A DNA stretch of 39,428 bases from a virus, in the IMG/VR virus record IMGVR_UViG_3300047557_001008, positions 1-39,428 of that record; one strand, written 5' to 3'. Positions 15,041 through 35,944 of the stretch are shown piece after piece (the first letter of the stretch is position 1; every line of letters begins with the position of its first letter). A program made the position numbers and the translations under genes. The notes beneath the pieces were generated by a model. That model ran no database searches. It was given only the letters and a program-made list of their open reading frames with translations, and was not told where the DNA came from.

Positions 15041-15269
15041 TGGTATCCTCCTCTGGAACATATGAATATTCTTCTGCTGATAGTAGCATTCCCTTGGCTA
15101 ACCAAGGATTCATGTTTTCACTTACATCTGTCATGAGATAGCGTGTACCTTCGTAGTCACTCCACTCACTTACTAATACCCATCCAGTACATATCTGACT
15201 ATCAGAGTCTTCTAATTCTTCTGCAAGTATACGCATTGCTTTTTCTATAGCTTCTGTAAACTTGCTCAC
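15027..15269 (-). CDS. Hypothetical small protein (WVLVSEWSDYEGTRYL type), 80 aa
   Basis: A small acidic protein with a helical N-terminus (FTEAIEKAMRILAEEL) followed by TGWVLVSEWSDYEGTRYLM and PWLAKGMLLSAEEYS. Related small proteins with the LVSEW.D..G.RYL pattern are frequent in actinobacteriophages, with no known function. It overlaps the protease gene by 4 nt, so the two are probably translationally coupled, which could hint that they act together. Confidence 0.65.
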   Translation of the reverse strand: MSKFTEAIEKAMRILAEELEDSDSQICTGWVLVSEWSDYEGTRYLMTDVSENMNPWLAKGMLLSAEEYSYVPEEDTSGSN

Positions 15270-15811
15270 TTGTATTGCTCTTCTACTTGGTATGGGGCTG
15301 CTGTGTAGGCACTGACTCTTGCGGCAACTTCCATTGCTGCGATGGCATCAGCACCTGCATAAAGAGCACCAAGGGCGTAAGAGCCTCCGCTGCCAATAGC
15401 GTAGAATCCTTCTCCACTCTTCATCACCGCCAAATCCTGGTCGACATCAAAGAGCTCGCCACCAACTGCGATGAGAAACTGGAATCTTAATCCATCTTTA
15501 TCTTTGTCGTGAGTTTCATCAAAGTTATAACCATTCTCTGTAAGGCACTTACGAAGAGAGGGCATAGCTTTTACAATCATGTAGCGATAGGCATCTTTCT
15601 TGTCCTTCGCTGAAAATACTGGTGGTACCCAGATGTTCTGGGCTATGTCGCAAGGAGCAACCTCACCAGCTCCTGCAATTAGTAACGCACCGCGTTGTGT
15701 AATCTTACGCATAACTGGATGTGAGTAAACTTTACCGCCATCATCAGTAATGCGACTATCGGCAACAATGACAGACTTGTCATCATATTCAACGCCAATA
15801 ATTGTTGTCAT
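15266..15811 (-). CDS. HslV/proteasome-beta-like Ntn-hydrolase protease
   Basis: A 181-aa protein, close to bacterial HslV (about 175 aa). After removal of Met it starts with Thr (TTIIGVEYDDKSVIVADSRI), giving T1 as nucleophile, D17 in VIVADSR and a lysine near 33-35 in VMRKI, the catalytic set of threonine Ntn-hydrolases. The later GSGGSYALGALYAG resembles the HslV GSGG.YA..A segment. No ATPase partner (HslU, ARC) is visible. The gene directly follows the portal gene in the packaging/head block. Capsid-maturation or scaffold degradation is a reasonable inference; an action on host proteins is the alternative. Confidence 0.8.
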   Translation of the reverse strand: MTTIIGVEYDDKSVIVADSRITDDGGKVYSHPVMRKITQRGALLIAGAGEVAPCDIAQNIWVPPVFSAKDKKDAYRYMIVKAMPSLRKCLTENGYNFDETHDKDKDGLRFQFLIAVGGELFDVDQDLAVMKSGEGFYAIGSGGSYALGALYAGADAIAAMEVAARVSAYTAAPYQVEEQYK

Positions 15812-20163: not shown

Positions 20164-20263
20164 AGTCAGTCCTCCAGTTAAATCACACTAATAACGCCGC
20201 CCATGAAACGGGCAGTATACCCCCATATAAGTTATATATAATTATATATAATATAATATAAGC

Positions 20264-20290
20264 GAGCGAGCCGAAGAGCGAAGCTCGCTC
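20264..20290. other. GAGCGAGC/GCTCGCTC hairpin with alternative pairing
   Basis: GAGCGAGC (20264-20271) pairs with GCTCGCTC (20283-20290) around an 11-nt loop. A second fold, GAGCGA pairing with TCGCTC across AGC (20276-20290), excludes the first. The element is embedded in TATA-rich sequence. It could be a protein site in DNA or a switch in the late leader RNA. Confidence 0.45.
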
Positions 20291-20316
20291 TATATATGGA
20301 ATTATTATTACATATA

Positions 20317-20353
20317 TAGAAAACCTGTTCAAATCGGGAAACCGAACAGGTTT
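20317..20353 (-). terminator. Intrinsic terminator-like hairpin in the late leader
   Basis: AAACCTGTTC (20321-20330) pairs with GAACAGGTTT (20344-20353), 10 bp around a 13-nt loop. Reading leftward, the stem is followed by TTTTCTATAT, an intrinsic-terminator shape. No rightward gene ends here, so if active it would stop late transcripts before the terminase unless antiterminated. In the rightward direction the tail is less U-rich. Confidence 0.5.
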
Positions 20354-20494
20354 CCCTAATATATTTTTATTTTAGGGGTATAATGTCCGATTTGTATATA
20401 TATGAGGGGGGCTTATAACAGAAATTTTTAGGGGGACTATATGTATATTATATGTCGCTGATTTATCAAATGCCCCCTCAAAGTTCCGCACCGA

Positions 20495-20527
20495 CCTGAG
20501 AGTTTCCTGAGAGTTTCCTGAGAAGGG
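20495..20527 (+). repeat. Three tandem 11-bp units at the late transcription start
   Basis: CCTGAGAGTTT occurs twice exactly and CCTGAGAAGGG once, at 20495, 20506 and 20517, with an 11-bp period. The third unit overlaps the expected start site (about 20523) of the leftward consensus promoter. The core CTGAGA is the same as in the far end of the ten-unit array at 20642-20751, where it lies on the other strand. Confidence 0.85.
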
Positions 20528-20529
20528 GC

Positions 20530-20558
20530 ATTATACCATGACTTCTGTATCTTGTCAA
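20530..20558 (-). promoter_or_regulatory. Late leftward promoter, perfect sigma70 consensus
   Basis: On the minus strand TTGACA (20558-20553) and TATAAT (20535-20530) are separated by exactly 17 bp, so both hexamers and the spacing match consensus. The direction and position fit the start of the late operon that begins with terminase. Repeat arrays on both sides suggest that this strong promoter is repressed early. Confidence 0.85.
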
Positions 20559-20582
20559 GCAATAAAAATGTGATTTCTGTCA

Positions 20583-20598
20583 TAGAACAAGTGTTCTA
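20583..20598. promoter_or_regulatory. Palindrome with GAAC-N4-GTTC core (SOS-box-like)
   Basis: TAGAACA-AG-TGTTCTA has 7-bp arms. Its core GAAC-AAGT-GTTC fits the LexA box form GAAC-N4-GTTC known from Gram-positive bacteria and actinobacteria. It lies 25 bp upstream of the -35 of the late promoter. A host LexA site is inferred; a site for another dimeric regulator is equally possible. Confidence 0.45.
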
Positions 20599-20641
20599 AT
20601 GATTGAGTGGGAGACACTCCCCCCATGCCCCTAGCCCCCCT

Positions 20642-20751
20642 ATATTCTCAGGTAATTCTCAGACTTCTCTCAGTATTTTCTCAGGTTCTATTTACCTACT
20701 GTTCACCTAGAGTTCACCAACACTTTACCTTCCGTTCACCTTCCGTTCATC
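20642..20751 (-). repeat. Ten tandem 11-bp units (iteron-like array)
   Basis: Read on the minus strand, 110 bp divide into ten units of exactly 11 bp. The first six nucleotides of the units are GATGAA, GGTGAA, GGTAAA, GGTGAA, GGTGAA, GGTAAA, CCTGAG, ACTGAG, TCTGAG, CCTGAG, each followed by five variable bases. All keep T-R-A at positions 3-5. There are no gaps, and the units on each side do not match. The helical phasing implies a protein binding one DNA face cooperatively. Confidence 0.85.
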
Positions 20752-20822
20752 TTGGGGGTCTAGTATGCGTCTTGTCATTGAATATCGGATAGATACTCAC
20801 GACACGCCGATTAGATTAGATT

Positions 20823-20850
20823 TTGCGAAATCGTAAAGTCATGATATAAT
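20823..20850 (+). promoter_or_regulatory. Rightward promoter, TTGCGA-N16-TATAAT
   Basis: The -10 TATAAT at 20845-20850 is perfect and the -35 TTGCGA at 20823-20828 matches four of six. It would start transcription near 20857 and give a roughly 180-nt structured leader before the GTG at 21041. It is the most likely first promoter of the rightward unit. Confidence 0.55.
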
Positions 20851-20869
20851 CGGATAGTAAAACTAAATA

Positions 20870-20976
20870 GGGGAAAGTTAGGCTAGTGATTCGCTAAACG
20901 CGATTCGCCTATTAGTAGCAACGGGTCGCCCGTGATAGGTACGCCATAAGTGACACGACACGCCGATACTTTCCCC
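20870..20976 (+). ncRNA. Structured leader element upstream of the rightward genes
   Basis: GGGGAAAGT (20870-20878) pairs with ACTTTCCCC (20968-20976), a 9-bp closing stem. Inside are TAGGC/GCCTA (20879-20883 with 20907-20911), holding TCGC-TAAAC-GCGA, and ACGGG-TCG-CCCGT (20921-20933). The branched arrangement resembles a cis-acting RNA or small ncRNA. It is not a tRNA: T-loop and D-arm signatures are absent. No known riboswitch class is recognised. Confidence 0.4.
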
Positions 20977-20979
20977 GAT

Positions 20980-21008
20980 TTTGGAATTACGATAGAATAT
21001 GATAGAAT
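20980..21008 (+). promoter_or_regulatory. Possible rightward promoter with TAGAAT -10
   Basis: TAGAAT at 21003-21008 (and another at 20993-20998) lies 16 bp after TTGGAA at 20981-20986, or 17 bp after TTTGGA at 20980. The -10 form TAGAAT is the same as in two stronger promoters downstream. The start would be near 21015, 26 nt before the first gene. Confidence 0.4.
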
Positions 21009-21040
21009 AGGGCACAACAAGGAAAGGAAAGGAGAGAGAA

Positions 21041-21370
21041 GTGACACGACCCTACGCGGGGTCGGGTGTAGGTGTAAGACAACTGCGTACTGTACGGGCT
21101 AGTCGCCCGTGGGGTAAGCGCAACTATAACCTAACGGGCGCACAATGCTCACCCGTTACAGTTACGGACAAGCACGGGCATACCCGTACTGTTGCGCCCC
21201 TAGTACATGGACAAGTCGTACGCCTAGCAAAACGCACTAACCGCGCCATCATGGCAGGAGAGCGCGTACTAACGCCCGACTTGACAGAAGCACAAGAGAG
21301 TGCTATACTAGCACAACTACACGCTAACGCGACACCACGCGCCAAAGCGTTCAACATACACGACAAGTAA
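21041..21370 (+). CDS. Hypothetical early protein, 109 aa
   Basis: A GTG start is preceded by AAGGAAAGGAGAGAGAA. The protein is basic and Thr/Arg-rich (VRQLRTVRASRPWGKRNYNL), with a middle that reads VTVTDKHGHTRTVAPLVHGQ and a C-terminal helix (EAQESAILAQLHANATPRAK). No cysteine cluster and no family recognised. As the first gene of the rightward unit it is a candidate immediate-early protein, perhaps the factor that binds the 11-bp arrays, but it shows no clear DNA-binding fold. Confidence 0.6.
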   Translation: MTRPYAGSGVGVRQLRTVRASRPWGKRNYNLTGAQCSPVTVTDKHGHTRTVAPLVHGQVVRLAKRTNRAIMAGERVLTPDLTEAQESAILAQLHANATPRAKAFNIHDK

Positions 21371-21382
21371 TAGGGGGTAGCC

Positions 21383-21547
21383 ATGACACCACGCATGGCA
21401 GAAATCCTAGCCCACTATGAGCGCCTAAACCGCGCCCTAGATAGGCAGGAGAAGCGAGAGATTTTCGGGCAGAAGGTACGCCTAGCACGGGCAGACTTGA
21501 AGCCAGCAAGTAAGCACACGCGACTTGTGGGCTTACAGGGTAATTAG
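21383..21547 (+). CDS. Small early protein, 54 aa
   Basis: The ATG at 21383 lies five bases after TAGGGGG, the ribosome-site form used repeatedly in this unit. The product, MTPRMAEILAHYERLNRALD then RQEKREIFGQKVRLARADLK and a short tail, is a charged helical peptide. It is too short for confident family assignment. Coding use and spacing match the neighbours. Confidence 0.5.
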   Translation: MTPRMAEILAHYERLNRALDRQEKREIFGQKVRLARADLKPASKHTRLVGLQGN

Positions 21548-21554
21548 TAGGGTA

Positions 21555-21598
21555 GTCGCGCACCGATAGACGGCAAGGGTTCATGACCCTAGCGCGAC
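21555..21598 (+). other. Two-helix stem-loop between small early genes
   Basis: GTCGCGC (21555-21561) pairs with GCGCGAC (21592-21598), and AGGGT-TCATG-ACCCT (21576-21590) forms an inner hairpin stacked next to the 3' arm. The shape recalls an acceptor/T-arm minihelix, but the invariant T-loop A58 and a CCA end are missing. It may end or stabilise the first short transcript. A second small inverted repeat, GCGGA-AAGTA-TCCGC, follows at 21601-21615. Confidence 0.4.
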
Positions 21599-21619
21599 AC
21601 GCGGAAAGTATCCGCATAC

Positions 21620-21648
21620 TTGACACGCCTTAGGGGGTGTGCTAGAAT
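21620..21648 (+). promoter_or_regulatory. Rightward promoter TTGACA-N17-TAGAAT
   Basis: The -35 at 21620-21625 is consensus, the spacer is 17 bp, and the -10 TAGAAT at 21643-21648 differs at one base. The start should fall near 21655, only a few bases before the ATG at 21658, so the mRNA of the 46-49-aa membrane protein may be leaderless or nearly so, as is common in actinobacteria. Confidence 0.75.
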
Positions 21649-21798
21649 ATGGACAACATGCTAGAACTTAGCGTGAGTTCTTGGGGGATAACTCTCTCAA
21701 CCGACCCACTATATTTCAACCTATCATGGGGCTTGACAATAGTGCTAATCGGTGCTATAATTGCCCGTAAGATAGTAAAGGTTAGGAGAAGCAAGTGA
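21649..21798 (+). CDS. Tiny single-span membrane protein, 49 aa
   Basis: ATG at 21649 (or 21658, better placed with respect to the promoter) to TGA at 21798. The product has a polar N-terminus, one transmembrane segment (YFNLSWGLTIVLIGAIIA) and a basic C-terminal anchor (RKIVKVRRSK). The stop overlaps the next start as GTGA. A consensus promoter lies just upstream and another lies inside the gene. Function unknown; a small early membrane protein such as an exclusion or host-takeover factor is conceivable. Confidence 0.55.
   Translation: MDNMLELSVSSWGITLSTDPLYFNLSWGLTIVLIGAIIARKIVKVRRSK
21733..21761 (+). promoter_or_regulatory. Rightward promoter, perfect TTGACA-N17-TATAAT
   Basis: Both hexamers (21733-21738 and 21756-21761) and the 17-bp spacing are exact consensus. 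The promoter lies inside the tiny membrane-protein gene and would start near 21768, 27 nt before the GTG at 21795. Confidence 0.8.
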
Positions 21799-21995
21799 GT
21801 GACAGCGACTACATGCTAGTGCTAACGCCATCAGAATTAGACACGCTACGCACAAGCCTACGCAACGAGAGCGCAAGGCTAAAGGCGCAAGGCTTCACAG
21901 GGCTTCAAGCCTATGTGGATAACCTACGCGATAAGATTTCCAACATGATGATTGACCAAAGTTATGCTAGGCTTGACAACAAGTCAAGCGTATGA
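21795..21995 (+). CDS. Hypothetical early protein, 66 aa
   Basis: A GTG start overlapping the previous stop, with AGGAGAAGCAA upstream. The protein is helical (TPSELDTLRTSLRNESARLK, GLQAYVDNLRDKISNMMIDQ) and resembles a small coiled-coil or helical-hairpin protein. The end of the gene contains the -35 and spacer of the next promoter. No family recognised. Confidence 0.6.
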   Translation: MSDSDYMLVLTPSELDTLRTSLRNESARLKAQGFTGLQAYVDNLRDKISNMMIDQSYARLDNKSSV

Positions 21996-22001
21996 TAGAA
22001 T
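21973..22001 (+). promoter_or_regulatory. Rightward promoter TTGACA-N17-TAGAAT before the amidoligase gene
   Basis: TTGACA at 21973-21978, a 17-bp spacer and TAGAAT at 21996-22001 overlap the last codons of the 66-aa gene. Transcription would start near 22008, about 20 nt before the amidoligase start, making this the dedicated promoter of the amidoligase/amidotransferase pair. Confidence 0.75.
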
Positions 22002-22029
22002 ACGGCAACAAGTAAATCACTAGGGGGTG

Positions 22030-23244
22030 ATGATAGTGCCGATAGATGATGAAGATACGCCCGAAGTAGTATCGTGCTCCGAGTGTCACAGCGAGATAAA
22101 CGCTGGCGACTCGCTCACGATAGACAACGGCGACTCTGTATGCCAAGATTGCTACCGCACATGCGAGCGTTGCGATTGGTCGGGTACAGATAGCGACTCA
22201 TGGTACACAGTACAGGATAGTTCATGGTGCGAAGGTTGCTGGGAGAATAACTCGTTCTACTGTGACAGGTGCGAAGAAACCTTTGACGACGACCGCACGG
22301 GTAGTTACAATGTAGAGCGTTCTCGCTGGTGCGAGTATTGTACTAACGACAATGCTTCGTATTGTGACGATTGTGAAGAATACTATGCTGACGGCGACAG
22401 TTGCCCATGTGGCGGTGGTGCTGGTAAGATACATCAGTATTCTTACAAGCCTAACCCTGCCTTTCATGGCGTTGACCCTAACGGGTTATACATGGGCTTT
22501 GAGTTAGAGATGACCTTCCCCGACATTACTAACAACCTATACAGCATGGCGGTTAGCGGTGTTGAGCCACTAGAGCAAGATAATGTGTGCTATCTCAAGT
22601 CGGACGGCTCTATTGAGGGTACGGGCTTTGAGTTAGTGACACACCCACATACGCTTGGTGCGTATGAGCAAGCCAAAGATTTATGGAATTACATTGAGCA
22701 CCTACGCACGAGCTACGGCGCTCGCTCATGGGATACCGAAAGTTGTGGGCTTCATGTCCATGTGTCCCGTGCTGCGTTCAAGTCGGGTGCTCACACGCAT
22801 AGGTTCTTATCACTAATCTATAAGAACCCACGCGAGATGATGAAGTTAGCAGGGCGTAAGAACTCACGCTTCGCTCGCTTTGATGATGTGTACAAGCCCG
22901 ACGAGTGGGGCTTACCACACTTCTCCTTACAGGAGAAAATACATAGGGGTTATCGCACCGAGCGTTATGGTGCGGTCAATACCAACAACGACTACACACT
23001 AGAGTTGCGCTTCTTTCGTGGCAACATGAAGCGCGAGGGCGTTATGACCGCCCTAGAATTGTGCCACGCTTCGGTAGAATATACCCGTGACTTGTCCGTG
23101 TCTGATGTAAAGTTAGGCATGCTCAAGTGGGAATGGTTCTACGATTGGGTGTCCGCTAACAACGGGCTATACCCTAACCTATACCTACGCATGTCCAAAG
23201 TGCCTAGCGTATCTCTTGACAGCAAGCCACTAATCAACGCCTAA
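22030..23244 (+). CDS. Amidoligase (COOH-NH2 ligase) with four N-terminal zinc modules
   Basis: A 404-aa protein. Residues about 16-127 hold eight regularly spaced Cys pairs, giving four C4 LIM/treble-clef-like zinc sites. The catalytic part has the marks of the glutamine-synthetase-like amidoligase family (Pfam Amidoligase_2): GFELEM near 156, KSDGSI near 190, FELVT near 200, GLHVHV near 240 and LELRFFRG near 326. These enzymes are predicted to use ATP to join a carboxyl group to an amine. The start is ATG 22030 after TAGGGGG; GTG 22036 is the alternative. It is followed after nine bases by a class-II glutamine amidotransferase, the association expected for this family. Substrate unknown. 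Confidence 0.8.
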   Translation: MIVPIDDEDTPEVVSCSECHSEINAGDSLTIDNGDSVCQDCYRTCERCDWSGTDSDSWYTVQDSSWCEGCWENNSFYCDRCEETFDDDRTGSYNVERSRWCEYCTNDNASYCDDCEEYYADGDSCPCGGGAGKIHQYSYKPNPAFHGVDPNGLYMGFELEMTFPDITNNLYSMAVSGVEPLEQDNVCYLKSDGSIEGTGFELVTHPHTLGAYEQAKDLWNYIEHLRTSYGARSWDTESCGLHVHVSRAAFKSGAHTHRFLSLIYKNPREMMKLAGRKNSRFARFDDVYKPDEWGLPHFSLQEKIHRGYRTERYGAVNTNNDYTLELRFFRGNMKREGVMTALELCHASVEYTRDLSVSDVKLGMLKWEWFYDWVSANNGLYPNLYLRMSKVPSVSLDSKPLINA

Positions 23245-23253
23245 GGGGGTGTT

Positions 23254-24150
23254 ATGTGTCTATTAGTTGTCTGTAAGCCTAACGCTATACCAAAGCGAGA
23301 GGAACTTACAGAAGGCGCATGTAGTAACCCACACGGATACGGGTTCGCCATGATAGTTGACGGAAAGATATTCCGTTATCGTACCATGTCTGCTCGTAAA
23401 GCCGTAACAAAGTTTCTTCACATGCGCGAGCAATACCCAAAGGGTTATGCTATATGGCATGCCCGTTACGCTACACATGGCGTAAAGAATGAAGATAATT
23501 GTCACCCATTCCAAGTGGGTGATGATGTTGATACTGTACTAGCGCACAATGGTGTGCTAGATACTTTCATAGGGAAAGATGACAAGCGTAGTGATACGCG
23601 TATCTTCGCAGAGGATACCCTACCTAAACTTGGTGGGGTTCGCGCTTTGGAAGATGAGAATCTGTACCGCATGATTGAGGGGTGGGCTAGCGGTTCTAAG
23701 ATAGCCGTGCTCACCGCCAATCCTAACGCTGAGTACCAACTCTATCTCATCAACGAGAGACTCGGTACTTGGGACGACAACGGAGTATGGTGGAGCAACT
23801 CAAGTTACAAGCGCACTACCTATACTACCTACAAGGCAGAGCCTAAGCCGTCAGTAGATACGACTTCACTAGACTACGACTTAGAGCAAGCCTATTACGC
23901 TGAGTTGTTAGAACATAACGACAGAGAAGGCTATCTCATCATAGACCAATGCCCTATGTGTGAAGCCTTAGTAGACATAGATGTATCCATAGAGTATTGC
24001 CAATACTGTGAAGCATGTATGTCTTGCCAAGCACACTTTATAAATTGTATGTGCTACACACCCAGCTCCGCTAAGCCTAAGCACAAAGAGTTAGACTTTG
24101 ATAATCAGTGGGTTAGGGTGTATAATAAGTACCAAGATACACTAATCTAA
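23254..24150 (+). CDS. Class-II glutamine amidotransferase with C-terminal zinc ribbons
   Basis: A 298-aa Ntn-hydrolase. Cys2 follows the initiator Met and would be the N-terminal nucleophile. Family features follow in order: HGYGFAM (27-33), WHARYATHG (68-76), HPF (84-86), LAHNGVL (96-102) and SDTRIFAE (113-120). Residues about 233-267 hold CPMC, CQYC, CMSC and CMC, two likely zinc sites not typical of GATases. It would release ammonia from glutamine, or remove or transfer a gamma-glutamyl amide. It lies directly behind the amidoligase with AAGGGGGTGTT before ATG, so a two-step pathway is likely. Confidence 0.8.
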   Translation: MCLLVVCKPNAIPKREELTEGACSNPHGYGFAMIVDGKIFRYRTMSARKAVTKFLHMREQYPKGYAIWHARYATHGVKNEDNCHPFQVGDDVDTVLAHNGVLDTFIGKDDKRSDTRIFAEDTLPKLGGVRALEDENLYRMIEGWASGSKIAVLTANPNAEYQLYLINERLGTWDDNGVWWSNSSYKRTTYTTYKAEPKPSVDTTSLDYDLEQAYYAELLEHNDREGYLIIDQCPMCEALVDIDVSIEYCQYCEACMSCQAHFINCMCYTPSSAKPKHKELDFDNQWVRVYNKYQDTLI

Positions 24151-24173
24151 ACACCAACTAGGAGAGCAATTAC

Positions 24174-24434
24174 ATGACAAAAGAACAACTCGTTGGCTTT
24201 GCTGACGAACTACGCGATATCGCCTATCTGCTAGAGCAGAAGGCAGATGAACAAGAGAACTACTACCCACGCGGTACAATTCTCAAGGCACTACCCGTAC
24301 AAGGACGCTTCAAGCCAAAGTCTATGTGGGTTTCACTAGGCGACGGCACATACCGCCATCTCAATGGTAAGAAGGGACTAGTCACCACACATGACAGACT
24401 CGACGGATACACAAGCGTTATCTTCAGCGCCTAA
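24174..24434 (+). CDS. Hypothetical protein downstream of the amidoligase pair, 86 aa
   Basis: The ATG follows TAGGAGAGCAATTAC. A helical N-terminus (KEQLVGFADELRDIAYLLEQ) is followed by a beta-rich part (GTILKALPVQGRFKPKSMWV, GTYRHLNGKKGLVTTHDRLD). No cysteines or membrane segments. Because it comes right after the amidotransferase it might be a partner or substrate, but nothing in the sequence proves that. Confidence 0.6.
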   Translation: MTKEQLVGFADELRDIAYLLEQKADEQENYYPRGTILKALPVQGRFKPKSMWVSLGDGTYRHLNGKKGLVTTHDRLDGYTSVIFSA

Positions 24435-24636
24435 TACAGATGTAGCAGTAGCCGAGCCACTAGCAGGTATGCTGGTGGCAGGTTACATTGTGCTCGTCTT
24501 TCCCAAAGAAACTTCAGAGCGCTCTGTATTTTATGGAGCCTTTGATACAATAGACGACGCTCGTAAGTGGGCGGAGTTGCTGACAGGGTTAGTTGTTATT
24601 CAACCCTTCTATTCACCAGCGATGAACAGAGGATAA
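24391..24636 (+). CDS. Hypothetical protein, 81 aa
   Basis: It overlaps the previous gene by 44 nt. The conserved-looking part starts near residue 30 (GYIVLVFPKETSERSVFYGA, FDTIDDARKWAEL) and ends FYSPAMNRG. Short proteins with Y..F.T.D.A..WA..L followed by Y.P..N.G are common in actinophages and seem to form a small alpha/beta fold of unknown role. The first 25 residues may be non-coding if a later start (ATG 24469) is used. Confidence 0.6.
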   Translation: MTDSTDTQALSSAPNTDVAVAEPLAGMLVAGYIVLVFPKETSERSVFYGAFDTIDDARKWAELLTGLVVIQPFYSPAMNRG

Positions 24637-24637
24637 C

Positions 24638-24967
24638 ATGAACGGACTATGTTCAACCCACCCCAATCCTGATATGTGGTTTCCTGAAGAGCAACCACTT
24701 CAGCGCAAGGGTGGTAGACCAAGCAGAGCTAACCACCGGCGACAGATTGAGAACGCAATCAAGGCGATAGCAATCTGTAGTTACTGCCCTACCCGTGCCC
24801 GTTGCCTTGAAGAGGGTATGAAAGAAGAGAACATAGAGCATGGTATCTGGGGTGGTATGCTTGCTGGAGACAGAATAATCTTGTCACGAACACGCAAGAC
24901 AGGTACAGTTAGAGAGCAAGCAATCAACTTCGCAGAGGGAGTAAAGGCATGGCAAAGTATCTCGTAA
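24638..24967 (+). CDS. whiB-like: WhiB-family iron-sulfur transcription regulator
   Basis: A 109-aa protein with the four conserved cysteines of WhiB proteins (C5, C47, C50, C56) and the turn GIWGG at 69-73, followed by a basic C-terminal region (SRTRKTG). N-terminal P.MWFPE also fits. WhiB proteins bind a 4Fe-4S cluster and act with the principal sigma factor of actinobacteria. The phage copy likely redirects or represses host or phage promoters, as shown for the mycobacteriophage TM4 WhiB. An unusually long Cys5-to-Cys47 insertion carries a basic GGRPSRANHRRQ. Confidence 0.85.
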   Translation: MNGLCSTHPNPDMWFPEEQPLQRKGGRPSRANHRRQIENAIKAIAICSYCPTRARCLEEGMKEENIEHGIWGGMLAGDRIILSRTRKTGTVREQAINFAEGVKAWQSIS

Positions 24968-25350
24968 GATATGGCATAGTGCTAGCGCTTGTTGCGCTAT
25001 TTACTGTGGTAATTGTCGAGCCATTGAAACCACCACATCAGTATAATCATCAGACTACTTGGTCTGTTGATGACAGTAAGGCTTACGCCTACGACCAGCT
25101 TGGCGTATGGCGTGACAAGCAGGTAGCATGTCTCAATAAATTGTGGGGTAAAGAATCAGCATGGAACCCTGAAGCATACAATAAAATAAAAGTCATGGGT
25201 AAAAATGCTGGCGGTATTCCACAACTACTTGGGCTCAACCCTGCGACACCCCCAACCAAGCAAATAGACAGGGGGCTTGAGTATATCTATCATAGATACT
25301 CAACCCCTTGTCGTGCTTGGGCACACTTCAAGAAACATGGGTGGCACTAA
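24949..25350 (+). CDS. Membrane-anchored lytic transglycosylase-like protein
   Basis: A 133-aa protein. Residues 5-24 form a hydrophobic signal anchor (VRYGIVLALVALFTVVIVE). The domain contains CLNKLWGKESAWNPEAYN with E69 as likely catalytic acid, NAGGIPQLLGLNPATPP and a C-terminal RYSTPCRAWAHFKKHGWH, the pattern of short actinobacterial SLT/RPF-like muramidases. It lies in the early rightward unit, far from the endolysin/holin cassette. It may be an accessory lysin acting from the membrane or a wall-remodelling enzyme. It overlaps the WhiB gene by 19 nt. Confidence 0.75.
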   Translation: MAKYLVRYGIVLALVALFTVVIVEPLKPPHQYNHQTTWSVDDSKAYAYDQLGVWRDKQVACLNKLWGKESAWNPEAYNKIKVMGKNAGGIPQLLGLNPATPPTKQIDRGLEYIYHRYSTPCRAWAHFKKHGWH

Positions 25351-25652
25351 TGGGTAAATCATATGGCTCTATCAGAGAGAGAATAAATCTTTGTTCTTCC
25401 TGTGGCAAGCCTGTCGTGGACGACAACTACTACACGATAACAACTAGATACAATAGCGGTAAGTACATGTACCACATGGACTCCGCAGCATGCGCCAACG
25501 CAGACGAGCTAGCAAAGGATTGGTATAGACAGAATGACAGAACAAGAACCAAGACATATAACAGAACTAAAACCCGACTACAAGACGGCGATGGATATAC
25601 GGGGGACACCGACGACAGTGTGCCCATGTGGCTCAGAGATATGGAACCTTAA
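25350..25652 (+). CDS. Hypothetical protein with N-terminal CxxC, 100 aa
   Basis: The start at 25350 overlaps the previous stop as TAATG and is preferred to an upstream in-frame start within the transglycosylase gene. The protein has LCSSCGKPVVDDNYY, resembling half a zinc ribbon, then YHMDSAAC, which could complete the site, and a polar tail rich in Arg, Lys and Thr. The 3' third overlaps the next gene in another frame. Function unknown. Confidence 0.6.
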   Translation: MGKSYGSIRERINLCSSCGKPVVDDNYYTITTRYNSGKYMYHMDSAACANADELAKDWYRQNDRTRTKTYNRTKTRLQDGDGYTGDTDDSVPMWLRDMEP

Positions 25653-25767
25653 GACTATCTTTGACAAAGATGATGGCACGATAGAGTTGTACTTTGTGGA
25701 TATGGAATGCGCTAACTGTGGTACATTAGCTACAGCACCCGTGCCCGAGAATGGTGTACTAGAATGA
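25534..25767 (+). CDS. Small zinc-ribbon protein, 77 aa
   Basis: The visible motif is CPCGSEIWNLKTIFDKDDG followed by ECANCGTLATAPVP, a CxC...CxxC zinc-binding knuckle pair. Very similar small proteins are widespread in actinobacteriophages. The function is unknown; nucleic-acid or protein binding is likely. It overlaps the previous gene by 119 nt in a different frame; both frames carry conserved-looking Cys motifs. A later start (ATG 25591) would reduce the overlap. Confidence 0.6.
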   Translation: MTEQEPRHITELKPDYKTAMDIRGTPTTVCPCGSEIWNLKTIFDKDDGTIELYFVDMECANCGTLATAPVPENGVLE

Positions 25768-25934
25768 CACCAACTAAAGTAGGATTGCCCGAGAATCGTA
25801 AAAGATTGAAGGGCTTAGGGCAAGAGAAGGCACAGAATAAATCCTTCGACGACGGCTGGAACGCTGGCTTTGACGCTGGCTTTAAGGCTGGAATCTTATG
25901 GGAAAGGGAGGGAAAAGACAATGCCGACTTATGA
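25764..25934 (+). CDS. Small early protein, 56 aa
   Basis: ATG at 25764 overlaps the previous stop (ATGA). It encodes MTPTKVGLPENRKRLKGLGQ, then EKAQNKSFDDGWNAGFDAGF and KAGILWEREGKDNADL. The repeated G-W/F-D/K-A-G-F pattern (GWNAGFDAGFKAG) is a typical feature of small phage proteins that form a short helical Gly-zipper-like segment. Function unknown. Confidence 0.6.
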   Translation: MTPTKVGLPENRKRLKGLGQEKAQNKSFDDGWNAGFDAGFKAGILWEREGKDNADL

Positions 25935-26094
25935 ATATAGATGTGGTAAGTGTGACTCACTTACTATACTTTCCCGTGCTGTAGATGACCGAGACGAACC
26001 AGTCTCGTGCGTCTGTGGCTTTGAGTCAACAAGAATATACAACGCTCCCGGTATCCAATTCAAGGGTACTGGATTCTACAAGACAGGAGGATAG
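25921..26094 (+). CDS. FmdB-like zinc-ribbon protein, 57 aa
   Basis: Starts MPTYEYRCGKCDSLTIL at ATG 25921 behind GGGAGGGAAAAGACA. The two knuckles C8-x2-C11 and C30-x-C32 (SCVCGFESTRIYNAPGIQFK) and the tail GTGFYKTGG are diagnostic of the FmdB/CxxC_CxxC_SSSS regulatory zinc-ribbon family, common in bacteria and phages. The family was first described as putative regulators; exact function is unknown. It overlaps the previous gene by 14 nt. Confidence 0.8.
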   Translation: MPTYEYRCGKCDSLTILSRAVDDRDEPVSCVCGFESTRIYNAPGIQFKGTGFYKTGG

Positions 26095-26095
26095 G

Positions 26096-26551
26096 GTGAT
26101 TACCCACCAACTCAACTCAGAAGAAGTAAGTAACCTAATCAAGTCGCACCTATGTGATGACTTGGAGATTGACAATGATGATAACTACTCATTGATACGT
26201 AGCCATGAAGATAAGTTCTATGGCATGGTCAAAGCATTCCCCAATACCAACATTGTAGTTACTAAAGCAGAGCACGATGATATAATCACAACCGCAGCAA
26301 GCGAGGAACTTAGTGCCCTGTTTATAGCAGCTACACCTGAAGGTGTATTCCAATTCAACCTATCGCTATTGCGACTAGAGTTTGAGGTATATACAGATGA
26401 AGGTACGGATACTATGGTTGCCGACCTAGATGTATCCAATGGTACTCAGATACTTGAATGGTATCCTGAGTTCGCAAGTGAAGATGATTACATCGACGCT
26501 CTTATGAGCAACGGAGATGCAATCGGATTCGATGAGAGTGAATCTTGGTAA
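26096..26551 (+). CDS. Hypothetical acidic protein, 151 aa
   Basis: The start is GTG 26096, five bases after a perfect AGGAGG; a longer frame back to 25985 would run through the zinc-ribbon gene and is rejected. The protein is very acidic (HLCDDLEIDNDDNYSLIRSH, YPEFASEDDYIDALMSNGDA) with beta-rich middle (GVFQFNLSLLRLEFEVYTDE). Strong negative charge is typical of DNA-mimic or inhibitor proteins, but no family is recognised. It is the last clear gene of the rightward unit. Confidence 0.6.
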   Translation: MITHQLNSEEVSNLIKSHLCDDLEIDNDDNYSLIRSHEDKFYGMVKAFPNTNIVVTKAEHDDIITTAASEELSALFIAATPEGVFQFNLSLLRLEFEVYTDEGTDTMVADLDVSNGTQILEWYPEFASEDDYIDALMSNGDAIGFDESESW

Positions 26552-26679
26552 AAATAAATAGATATATGCTAGCAGAATTGCTGCGTATGTCTCTTTATCT
26601 GATACCGCTATTCATGTTCACCAGTTTCTTCGGACTTGTTTTCGGAGTCTGGCTCTTCGCTATCTTGTTTGTCAGCTAA
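26545..26679 (+). CDS. Possible hydrophobic mini-protein antisense to the sigma-like gene
   Basis: An open frame runs from TTG 26545 (or ATG 26566) to TAA 26679. From the ATG it encodes 37 residues, MLAELLRMSLYLIPLFMFTS followed by FFGLVFGVWLFAILFVS, essentially one or two membrane spans. It overlaps the 3' end of the convergent sigma-like gene by about 72 nt. There is no strong ribosome site. It may be the last member of the rightward unit or a chance frame. Confidence 0.28.
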   Translation: MVKINRYMLAELLRMSLYLIPLFMFTSFFGLVFGVWLFAILFVS

Positions 26680-27294
26680 GTCTTCATCAAGGTACGGCTT
26701 ACGCCCACCCAACTTATTTACAAGACGCTGTATCGCTCGCTTGTGCCTCATGCGAGCAGCGTCCTCTGTACCAAGAGATAGATAGTTGGCTATCTCCTTG
26801 AAGTCTAATGACTCAGCATGGCGGAAGAATAAAATCTTTCTATCCTCCTTGGAAAGTTTCCAATATGCTGAGTCTACTTCAAGTAATAGCACCTGAATAT
26901 TGCCGCCCTCTGATGGGGCGGAAGGTCTACCACCAGCACTATTAAGATTCAACTTCGGTGCGATATGAAAGTTACCCATCAACACAGTAGGTAACAGCAC
27001 CTCAACTAATCCTGGTTCATAATAATATAAATCACTTACATCATAGCCAACAGTCTTGGCTTTCCACTTCTGACAATAATCCAACGCTTCATTACGCAGG
27101 CTACGATAGATAAGATTCTTAGCATCCTTCTCACCGATTGCTTCCCATGTATCTAACTTATTTGGGTGTTCAATGAACCATTTATATAATGCTTGTCTTA
27201 TATCTTCAAGCTCACATATGGGAAACTTCTTGTGGTATTCAGCAGCGACTGCGTCGACTACATACTGCCAGCGTTCTATTCTATCCCAGTTCAT
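26608..27294 (-). CDS. Sigma-factor-like protein (sigma70 regions 2 and 4)
   Basis: A 228-aa protein. ATG 27294 overlaps the upstream stop as ATGA, the usual coupling here, and is preferred to ATG 27312. The N-terminal half resembles sigma region 2 (ELEDIRQALYKWFIEHPNKL, NLIYRSLRNEALDYCQKWKA). Residues about 147-195 resemble region 4 with a helix-turn-helix (KLSKEDRKILFFRHAESLDF, KEIANYLSLGTEDAARMRHK). The C-terminus is an acidic tail (EEPDSENKSEETGEHE). It may direct host RNA polymerase to phage promoters or act as a non-sigma HTH regulator. It is the last gene of the leftward replication unit. Confidence 0.7.
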   Translation of the reverse strand: MNWDRIERWQYVVDAVAAEYHKKFPICELEDIRQALYKWFIEHPNKLDTWEAIGEKDAKNLIYRSLRNEALDYCQKWKAKTVGYDVSDLYYYEPGLVEVLLPTVLMGNFHIAPKLNLNSAGGRPSAPSEGGNIQVLLLEVDSAYWKLSKEDRKILFFRHAESLDFKEIANYLSLGTEDAARMRHKRAIQRLVNKLGGRKPYLDEDLADKQDSEEPDSENKSEETGEHE

Positions 27295-27683
27295 GGCTTG
27301 TCGTTCTTCCATTTCCTTGTACCAGTTAGCAAATCTTCTACAGTAATTAGATAACCTTTAGATTTATTCGGTGGTATCTCACACGAAATCTCCCTACCCA
27401 ATTGCTCAACAGTTTTCTTTAGGATATGAGTCGGCACAATAAATGTGGACTGTTCAAGTACGAACGCCCAGTATGCTGCCTCAGTTACAGATAATCCTGA
27501 AGGTTCCCATGAACCTGACTTCATATACCAACACTCAGTCTCAATGTAAATGTTGTTGGTAATCCACCACTTCCTGTCGCGCTTGACTTCTACTGTGCGC
27601 CCACCGGTAAGCAACTCTTCAACAAGTTGTTCACCCTTGCGCCCGTATCCAAAGTCAATATCGAATGAGGAGTTCTTTGCCAT
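27291..27683 (-). CDS. PD-(D/E)XK-like nuclease domain protein, 130 aa
   Basis: The N-terminus SSFDIDFGYGRKGEQLVEEL, then TVEVKRDRKWWITNNIYIET, contains a likely E-x-K catalytic motif (EVK) and a second acidic residue (IETE). Small proteins of this FD.D..YG..GE..V..LL type are frequent in actinophages and fit the restriction-endonuclease-like fold. It lies between the sigma-like gene and the Nmad1-like gene. It may process recombination or replication intermediates; catalytic activity is not proven. Confidence 0.65.
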   Translation of the reverse strand: MAKNSSFDIDFGYGRKGEQLVEELLTGGRTVEVKRDRKWWITNNIYIETECWYMKSGSWEPSGLSVTEAAYWAFVLEQSTFIVPTHILKKTVEQLGREISCEIPPNKSKGYLITVEDLLTGTRKWKNDKP

Positions 27684-35221: not shown

Positions 35222-35944
35222 CTAGCCTTGTTGTTCTTTTAATTTTTCTTTCAACTGCTCATTAGTCCAGTACATAGCATAGTAGTCATAGTCTAAGCTA
35301 AAGCGCTTCATATGCTTGACTAGCGCCCCAGTGTGGGCGTGTAGTGGAATACCTGCTGCCTTCATTCTGCGGAAGAAGATGATGTCCTCGCCGATGAACT
35401 TATCGTCATCGCCGTCTCCGCGTTCCATAAACATAGACTGTCCCGGGAACTTCTCACGCATCTTTGGTATGATAGACTTATGCATTAGCACAAACCCAAA
35501 GCCAGCTGAGTCACACTTGATGACTTCATCATGAGGTAGTGGGTGATGGTACTTAACCTGGAACTCACTGATGTCATCAAAGAGTACAGGGAAAGGACGC
35601 ATAAGCGTACTCTCATTCTCCTTGGAGATGAAGTACACACCACTGACGACAGGACGGTTAATCTTATCTGCTGTCTGCCATAACTTCTTCATTGACTCTA
35701 GGTTCAGTACTATGTCTGAGTCTACCCAGAGCAGCCAATCTGTCTTTATCTTATCTGCCCAATGGTCAAAGAGTACTTGGCGTTGTCTGCCAATCTGATT
35801 GCCCTGGACTCGGATACTGGTGTGAATCGGCATACCATTGATTGGGCCAGCGAGTACTGCTGTCATCAACCCTTCGGTAAACTTACCGTCGGTAGTGCCA
35901 TTATCGCACCAGCCAATTGCTACTGTGTCGTTCTTTCCTATCAT
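35222..35944 (-). CDS. GT-A-type glycosyltransferase
   Basis: A 240-aa protein with the nucleotide-sugar motif WLLWVDSDIVL (D75-S-D77), NQIGRQRQVLFDHW before it, CDSAGFGFVLMHKSIIP in the acceptor half and GEDIIFFRRMKAAG followed by HAHTGALVKH, typical of phage GT2-like enzymes. It lies directly between the fibre array and the large tail protein. It may glycosylate a fibre or capsid protein or modify host surface sugars. No sugar-biosynthesis genes accompany it. Confidence 0.78.
   Translation of the reverse strand: MIGKNDTVAIGWCDNGTTDGKFTEGLMTAVLAGPINGMPIHTSIRVQGNQIGRQRQVLFDHWADKIKTDWLLWVDSDIVLNLESMKKLWQTADKINRPVVSGVYFISKENESTLMRPFPVLFDDISEFQVKYHHPLPHDEVIKCDSAGFGFVLMHKSIIPKMREKFPGQSMFMERGDGDDDKFIGEDIIFFRRMKAAGIPLHAHTGALVKHMKRFSLDYDYYAMYWTNEQLKEKLKEQQG

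Follow-up and report, generated by a model that had tools for sequence, protein, structure and literature searches.

A paired amidoligase and class-II glutamine amidotransferase with LIM-like zinc modules in a Beephvirinae-related phage and other mobile elements: a candidate amidating system

Two adjacent enzyme genes in the early plus-strand region of a phage, here called ORF A and ORF B, raise the question which reaction their products may catalyse together, on which target, and to whose benefit. The window analysed is the whole of an IMG/VR virus record of 39,428 bases, in which ORF B begins 9 bp after the end of ORF A. By similarity of its terminase, which shares 47% identity with its counterpart in Streptomyces phage Immanuel3 (Beephvirinae) and 78% with the one in uncultured phage ct2KA10, the phage is a relative of the Beephvirinae phages of Streptomyces, and this kinship, together with an early-region gene of WhiB-like type, makes an actinobacterial host likely. 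The following features of the locus are referred to below.

21795-21995, + strand: small ORF just upstream of the pair (66 aa)
21971-21989, no strand: 7-bp inverted repeat GCTTGAC-AACAA-GTCAAGC, over the -35 box
21973-22001, + strand: sigma-70-like promoter of the pair, TTGACA-17 nt-TAGAAT, with TG before the -10 box
22027-23244, + strand: ORF A, zinc-module amidoligase (405 aa), predicted from Pfam PF12224, AlphaFold2 and Foldseek
22075-22239, + strand: ORF A zinc sites 1 and 2 (C17-C71), Cx2C-18-Cx2C-3-Cx2C-18-Cx2C, LIM-like spacing
22261-22410, + strand: ORF A zinc sites 3 and 4 (C79-C128), Cx2C-19-Cx2C-7-Cx2C-9-CxC
22477-23106, + strand: ORF A glutamine synthetase (GS)-like catalytic domain, active-site residues invariant or 99% conserved in 93 non-redundant pairs
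23254-24150, + strand: ORF B, class-II glutamine amidotransferase with zinc tail (298 aa), predicted from Pfam and Foldseek
23254-23808, + strand: ORF B glutaminase domain, with nucleophile C2 and glutamine pocket R71, N99-G100 and D114
23950-24054, + strand: two C4 zinc sites of ORF B (C233-C252 and C255-C267)
24174-24434, + strand: small ORF just downstream of the pair (86 aa)

Several other genes of the record can be assigned. The WhiB-like regulator (24638-24967, + strand) is shared by the majority of phages in the group, whether or not they carry the amidoligase pair, and a small transglycosylase-like (SLT) protein of the early region (24949-25350, + strand) was found at 102 loci and is kept in siblings that lack the pair. 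A sigma-factor-like gene (26608-27312, - strand; PHROG 354, E 2e-12, with a weak sigma-70 region 4) is conserved beside the early region. A proteasome/HslV-family Ntn-hydrolase gene (15266-15811, - strand; PHROG 1040 at E 1.5e-27, and above the cut-off for Pfam Proteasome) adjoins the portal gene and probably encodes the head-maturation protease, and a glycosyltransferase-like gene (35222-35944, - strand; PHROG 34859, E 3e-104) lies among the tail genes.

The start of ORF A is ambiguous, with three candidates (GTG at 22027, ATG at 22030, GTG at 22036), of which 22036 has the best Shine-Dalgarno spacing. The protein had been called an amidoligase from its motifs alone, and this assignment is borne out by a match to the Amidoligase_2 family (PF12224) of 22.9 bits (22.8 in a repeat search; Pfam cut-off 22) and by the presence of all four signatures GFELEM, KSDGSI, GLHVHV and LELRFFRG. 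It carries the conserved GxExE motif and the Glu, His and Arg residues expected of the Amidoligase_2 active site. In an alignment of 93 non-redundant pairs of viral, actinobacterial and clostridial origin, residues E159, E161, D193, E202, H243, H245, R248, R277, R313, N318, E326 and R328 are conserved at 100%, and K191 is near-invariant. The AlphaFold2 model (pLDDT 89) has the GS superfamily as its structural neighbourhood, in that the 20 best PDB matches in Foldseek all belong to it, albeit with a best E-value of 2e-5 and a TM-score of only about 0.3; these neighbours include GmaS, glutamine synthetase, the Pup ligase PafA, the depupylase Dop and YbdK. PDB profile matches of ORF A to casein kinase II, all with E-values of 0.03 or higher, were discarded as chance. 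Taken from sequence and model, ORF A is predicted to be an Amidoligase_2 member, i.e. a glutamine-synthetase-like ligase, with an intact active site.

ORF B had likewise been recognised as a class-II glutamine amidotransferase (GATase), and here the Pfam evidence agrees, with scores above the cut-offs for both GATase_6 (29.2 bits, cut-off 27) and GATase_4 (27.5 bits, cut-off 23), the motifs HGYGFAM, WHARYATHG and HNG, and a cysteine directly after the initiator methionine. Residues C2, H69, R71, T74, G76, N82, H84, H98, N99 and G100 are conserved at 100% in the 93 non-redundant pairs, and D114 is invariant in a separate alignment of relatives. Alignment with E. coli GlmS places the residues of its glutamine pocket on R71, N99-G100 and D114 of ORF B. 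The AlphaFold2 model (pLDDT 79) matches the glutaminase domain of GlmS (E 2e-7), PurF and EgtC (E 5e-5). Sequence and model therefore characterize ORF B as a predicted class-II GATase with an intact glutamine pocket.

Viral contigs yielded 43 loci of relatives for A and 75 for B, and bacterial genomes yielded 80 loci; pairing was scored only where the contig had room. ORF A was followed by ORF B, adjacent and on the same strand, at 105 of 107 viral, 22 of 22 actinobacterial and 59 of 62 clostridial loci. Fragments or split frames account for four of the misses. The genuine exceptions are one locus (L163) with a DUF932 gene in the place of B, and a C. difficile phage with its plasmid relatives, whose amidoligase has no GATase neighbour and also no zinc module. 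In the latter (L004, 3677-5866; L289, 3674-5863) the amidoligase gene is preceded by a DUF1653 gene and followed by a gene for an RlaP-like RNA-repair nucleotidyltransferase. The pairing is thus near-obligate. A and B diverge in step (rho 0.82 overall, 0.92 for viral pairs), a pattern that linkage alone would also produce. The original prediction had been staked on conservation of the active site and on co-occurrence of the genes in related phages; the catalytic residues are invariant throughout the 93 pairs, and A and B abut wherever this could be scored, with the two clear exceptions above.

We propose, with a probability of about 0.42, that the pair is an early-expressed, two-subunit, glutamine-dependent amide synthetase that amidates a target selected by its zinc modules. 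ORF A and ORF B would form one early-expressed unit, in which the N-terminal cysteine of ORF B would free ammonia from glutamine, and ORF A would use ATP to activate a carboxylate of the target as an acyl phosphate and transfer the ammonia to it, leaving a carboxamide, as in the change of Glu to Gln or of Asp to Asn or in the amidation of a C-terminus. The tandem LIM-like zinc modules of ORF A, together with the zinc tail of ORF B in the actinobacterial versions, would hold the target, which is most likely a host protein. The role of the pair would lie in host takeover or in the defeat of host defence, and would serve mobile elements of many kinds. What we infer here is that ORF B is active as a glutaminase and ORF A as a ligase, that ammonia passes from one subunit to the other, that the target is a protein and that the phage benefits. 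Ammonia is what a GATase supplies when its glutamine pocket is intact, so that amidation with a mass shift of -0.98 Da is the first expectation; the adducts of +128 or +129 that had been suggested earlier do not follow from this chemistry, since they would need ligation of an amino acid. Points against the proposal are that the TM-scores of ORF A to solved GS-fold enzymes are low, and that the class-II GATase fold can also be that of a gamma-glutamyl amide hydrolase, as in EgtC, and not of an ammonia donor.

This last point leads to a different view of the two enzymes, in which ORF A would join glutamate or another amine by an amide bond, and an EgtC-like ORF B would remove gamma-glutamyl groups or trim the product. 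Precedents exist, as EgtA is a GS-like ligase that is coupled to EgtC, a hydrolase with the class-II GATase fold, and as PafA and Dop carry out a ligation and its reversal on one fold; EgtC is moreover among the structural matches of ORF B. The glutaminase domains of GlmS and PurF match ORF B better than EgtC does, as the E-values of GlmS and EgtC given above illustrate, the glutamine pocket is invariant, and the strict one-to-one pairing more simply fits a complex of ammonia donor and acceptor. We consider such a cycle of making and removing improbable.

Two-subunit amidation of the kind that we propose has a parallel in MurT/GatD, which also performs glutamine-dependent amidation, but GatD is a class I enzyme and MurT is a Mur ligase. 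PafA and Dop show that GS-fold enzymes can work on proteins; they need Pup and have neither a GATase nor a LIM-like module.

The nature of the target is bound up with the zinc modules. The four C4 sites that had been read in ORF A and the two in ORF B are present, and are formed by sixteen cysteines in ORF A (C17/20/39/42, C46/49/68/71, C79/82/102/105 and C113/116/126/128) and eight in ORF B (C233/236/249/252 and C255/258/265/267). Among non-redundant relatives each cysteine is conserved in at least 88% (ORF A) or at least 93% (ORF B), and so these sites are not due to chance. For the zinc region of ORF A, LIM proteins are the best PDB profile match (E 0.0016), and they dominate the Foldseek matches of the N-terminal part of the model (best E 0.026). 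The spacing of sites 1 and 2 is 18/3/18, with Cys for His, compared to Cx2C-16/23-(H/C)x2C-2-Cx2C-16/21-Cx2(C/H/D) in the LIM consensus. The Pfam LIM model gave no match to ORF A at E up to 1, and sites 1 and 2 are for that reason called LIM-like rather than LIM.

The zinc modules were originally described as additions, and a view of them as special to this locus does not hold: they are a family feature also of the actinobacterial and clostridial copies, so that a peculiarity of one phage can be rejected. The number of knuckles per amidoligase is 5-11 in actinobacterial copies and mostly 6-7 in clostridial ones. The zinc tail of the GATase occurs only in the actinobacterial and actinophage branch, and is absent from the clostridial and Methylophilales GATases.

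Away from the cysteines, column identity is 0.28 in the zinc region of ORF A versus 0.52 in its catalytic domain, a divergence that is about twice as fast. Tandem pairs within one Nocardia genome show the same, with an identity of 0.25-0.39 in the zinc region versus 0.55-0.65 in the catalytic domain. The earlier suggestion that the zinc modules choose the target gains from this fast divergence outside the cysteines, which fits recognition, and loses from the fact that any surface-exposed module would diverge likewise; a role as target choosers is consistent with the alignments but unproved, and the modules could also be purely structural. That the target may be a protein is suggested by the LIM-like modules, by their fast divergence and by the use of the GS fold on proteins in pupylation.

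Judged by sequence comparison, the true relatives of the pair are that of mycobacteriophage Marvin and the copies in uncultured phages and mobile elements that are already annotated as amidoligase. Marvin gp105 and gp106, like their counterparts in other Marvinvirus phages, have the same gene order, are about 34% (gp105) and 29% (gp106) identical to ORF A and ORF B, respectively, and both carry zinc knuckles; gp105 differs in having four knuckles instead of eight and a longer C-terminus, and the phage genus is unrelated. These two proteins are already annotated as glutamine amidotransferase domain proteins. An 'Amidoligase enzyme' of an uncultured Caudovirales phage (A0A6J7X5D3, BFVD/UniProt) is 49% identical to ORF A over its full length, and a 'LIM domain containing protein' (A0A6J7X2B6, BFVD/UniProt) is a structural match that was independently so named; both descriptions are database names only. 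Methylophilales (OM43) phages MEP401 and MEP402 have a homologous adjacent pair with few or no zinc sites and an amidoligase with a long, unrelated N-terminus. The copies on actinobacterial and clostridial mobile elements ('amidoligase family protein' plus GATase) share genes, gene order, catalytic residues and the LIM-like zinc sites in A, but hosts and elements differ, the clostridial GATases have no zinc tail, and Nocardia has up to three pairs in tandem.

A more distant comparison is with the cassette of the podoviruses LUZ24, phiEco32 and RIO-1, which comprises a COOH-NH2 ligase, an amidoligase, a GATase, a RimK-type ATP-grasp enzyme and a GGCT. LUZ24 gp18 and gp19 are an early-region amidoligase adjoining a class-II GATase, as in the A-B pair, but gp18 scores only 3.0 bits (E 0.012) against a model of ORF A and, unlike ORF A, is without a zinc module. 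In the 39.4-kb record no match was found to the RimK-type ATP-grasp family (PF08443; controls positive in 13 of 14 genomes) or to GGCT (PF06094; controls positive in 9 of 14 genomes); COOH-NH2_lig (PF14395) gave no match either, its control being equally silent. Membership of the LUZ24/phiEco32 cassette was rejected, as neither ATP-grasp nor GGCT is present and the amidoligase is only remotely similar.

The comparison matters for the possibility that the pair amidates or decorates cytosolic peptidoglycan precursors, which would block superinfection or protect the infected cell. A glutamine-dependent pair that amidates peptidoglycan is already known in MurT/GatD. Iyer et al. in 2009 are said to have proposed cell-wall modification for phiEco32, and later authors have followed this for similar podovirus cassettes. 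Cell-wall modification against superinfection is the published reading of phage amidoligase and GATase genes such as those in the cassettes of phiEco32, LUZ24-like and RIO-1-like phages (PMC5498523, PMC10580990, PMC11318856). That reading is likewise a prediction, and for the present pair it meets with the absence of the extra cassette enzymes, the remoteness of gp18, the lack of any cell-wall gene family recurring near the cellular copies, and the LIM-like zinc array, which would be unexpected in a lipid II ligase. We therefore regard action on the cell wall as a serious but unlikely alternative.

The proposal draws also on the promoter data. The near-consensus promoter that had been noted for the pair was found again as TTGACA-17-TAGAAT, and a promoter, called at 10 or more of 12 consensus matches, precedes A in 32 of 45 relatives (shuffled sequences: mean 1.7, maximum 4) and B in 0 of 37. 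The region 20200-26700 contains 21 promoter-like sites versus 11.1 expected; five promoters of the extended -10 type, which match TTGACA-17-TAnnnT plus TG perfectly or nearly so, lie at 20558 (- strand), 21281, 21620, 21733 and 21973. The inverted repeat over the -35 box was rejected as an operator, since it is not kept in most relatives.

A small gene had been expected to travel with the pair, and none does so universally. The upstream small ORF is present in 12 of 16 pair-bearing and 0 of 5 pair-less phages of the group, a small and phylogenetically confounded sample, and the downstream one in 8 of 16 and 0 of 5, which is not significant alone. Neither was found in the cellular loci, nor does either accompany the pair outside the phage group, in which both are confined to members with the pair. 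An obligate third gene was rejected, none being shared across groups; DUF4192, DUF3846, DUF960 and serine recombinase genes look like neighbours belonging to the elements.

The pair was found in Marvin-type mycobacteriophages, Methylophilales phages and dozens of related phage contigs, on large mycobacterial plasmids, and patchily in Actinomycetota and Clostridia. It is absent from five phages of the same group that have the same flanking genes (L221, L226, L241, L255 and L124), and is therefore accessory. No recognisable replacement module occupies the site in these siblings, where the genes found are small ORFs without relation to each other or to the pair and one for an SprT-like protein. 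The accessory genes at the site, on the minus strand at 3137-3580 in L221 and 8405-9055 in L226, encode a protein without Pfam match (MATRSNIGVLQDDG...) and an SprT-like protein. Bacterial copies occur in 2 of 151 and 16 of 87 genomes of two families, with several copies in some genomes; three Nocardia genomes (L132, L135 and L133) have two or three amidoligase-GATase pairs in direct tandem. The clostridial neighbours are serine recombinases, DUF3846, DUF960 and HTH repressors, and those in Actinomycetota are DUF4192 (at about half of the actinobacterial loci), ArdC, TrwC relaxase, SSB and primase-polymerase; the cellular copies are thus surrounded by mobile-element genes. None of seven proteins, of which six belong to the family of the pair, matched a model in PADLOC 2.0.0, and a known anti-phage defence system was rejected on this basis.

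The gene neighbourhoods also bear on a role in small-molecule synthesis, in which the pair would amidate a metabolite or build a peptide-like compound as an auxiliary metabolic function. Cellular GS-like ligases and class-II GATases act mostly on small molecules, and a role of this kind has reportedly been suggested for mycobacteriophage Marvin. Amidoligase and GATase genes have been called auxiliary metabolic genes (PMC10580990), which we count in favour of this role. No recurrent biosynthetic partner gene was found around the pair in any of the groups, and a fast-evolving LIM-like zinc array would be unusual in a metabolic enzyme, and we hold synthesis of a small molecule to be quite improbable.

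Returning to amidation of a host protein, carriage by phages, plasmids and integrative elements suggests a function that is useful to any incoming DNA. Such carriage fits many functions, however, and host takeover or counter-defence as the benefit is suggested by what is the weakest step of the argument. No biochemical work on any family member was found, the reachable literature giving predicted functions only. In a wider and more speculative form, which we think unlikely, the LIM-like zinc amidoligase and its glutaminase would be a general protein-amidating effector common to the phages, plasmids and integrative elements that occur in Actinomycetota and Clostridia. It would turn one specific acidic residue into its amide, in a host protein that serves defence or gene expression, with a zinc array that would choose the protein and diversify by tandem duplication.

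The pair is already annotated in many phages and mobile elements, and what is new here is the picture at the level of the family. The subfamily can be narrowed to two genes with their own promoter, intact active sites and a fast-diverging LIM-like array, found on mobile elements of very different kinds. Modification of a host protein can be tested in laboratory strains by way of the predicted mass shift. If a host protein is indeed modified, mobile DNA would have in this pair a new enzymatic means of overriding its host.
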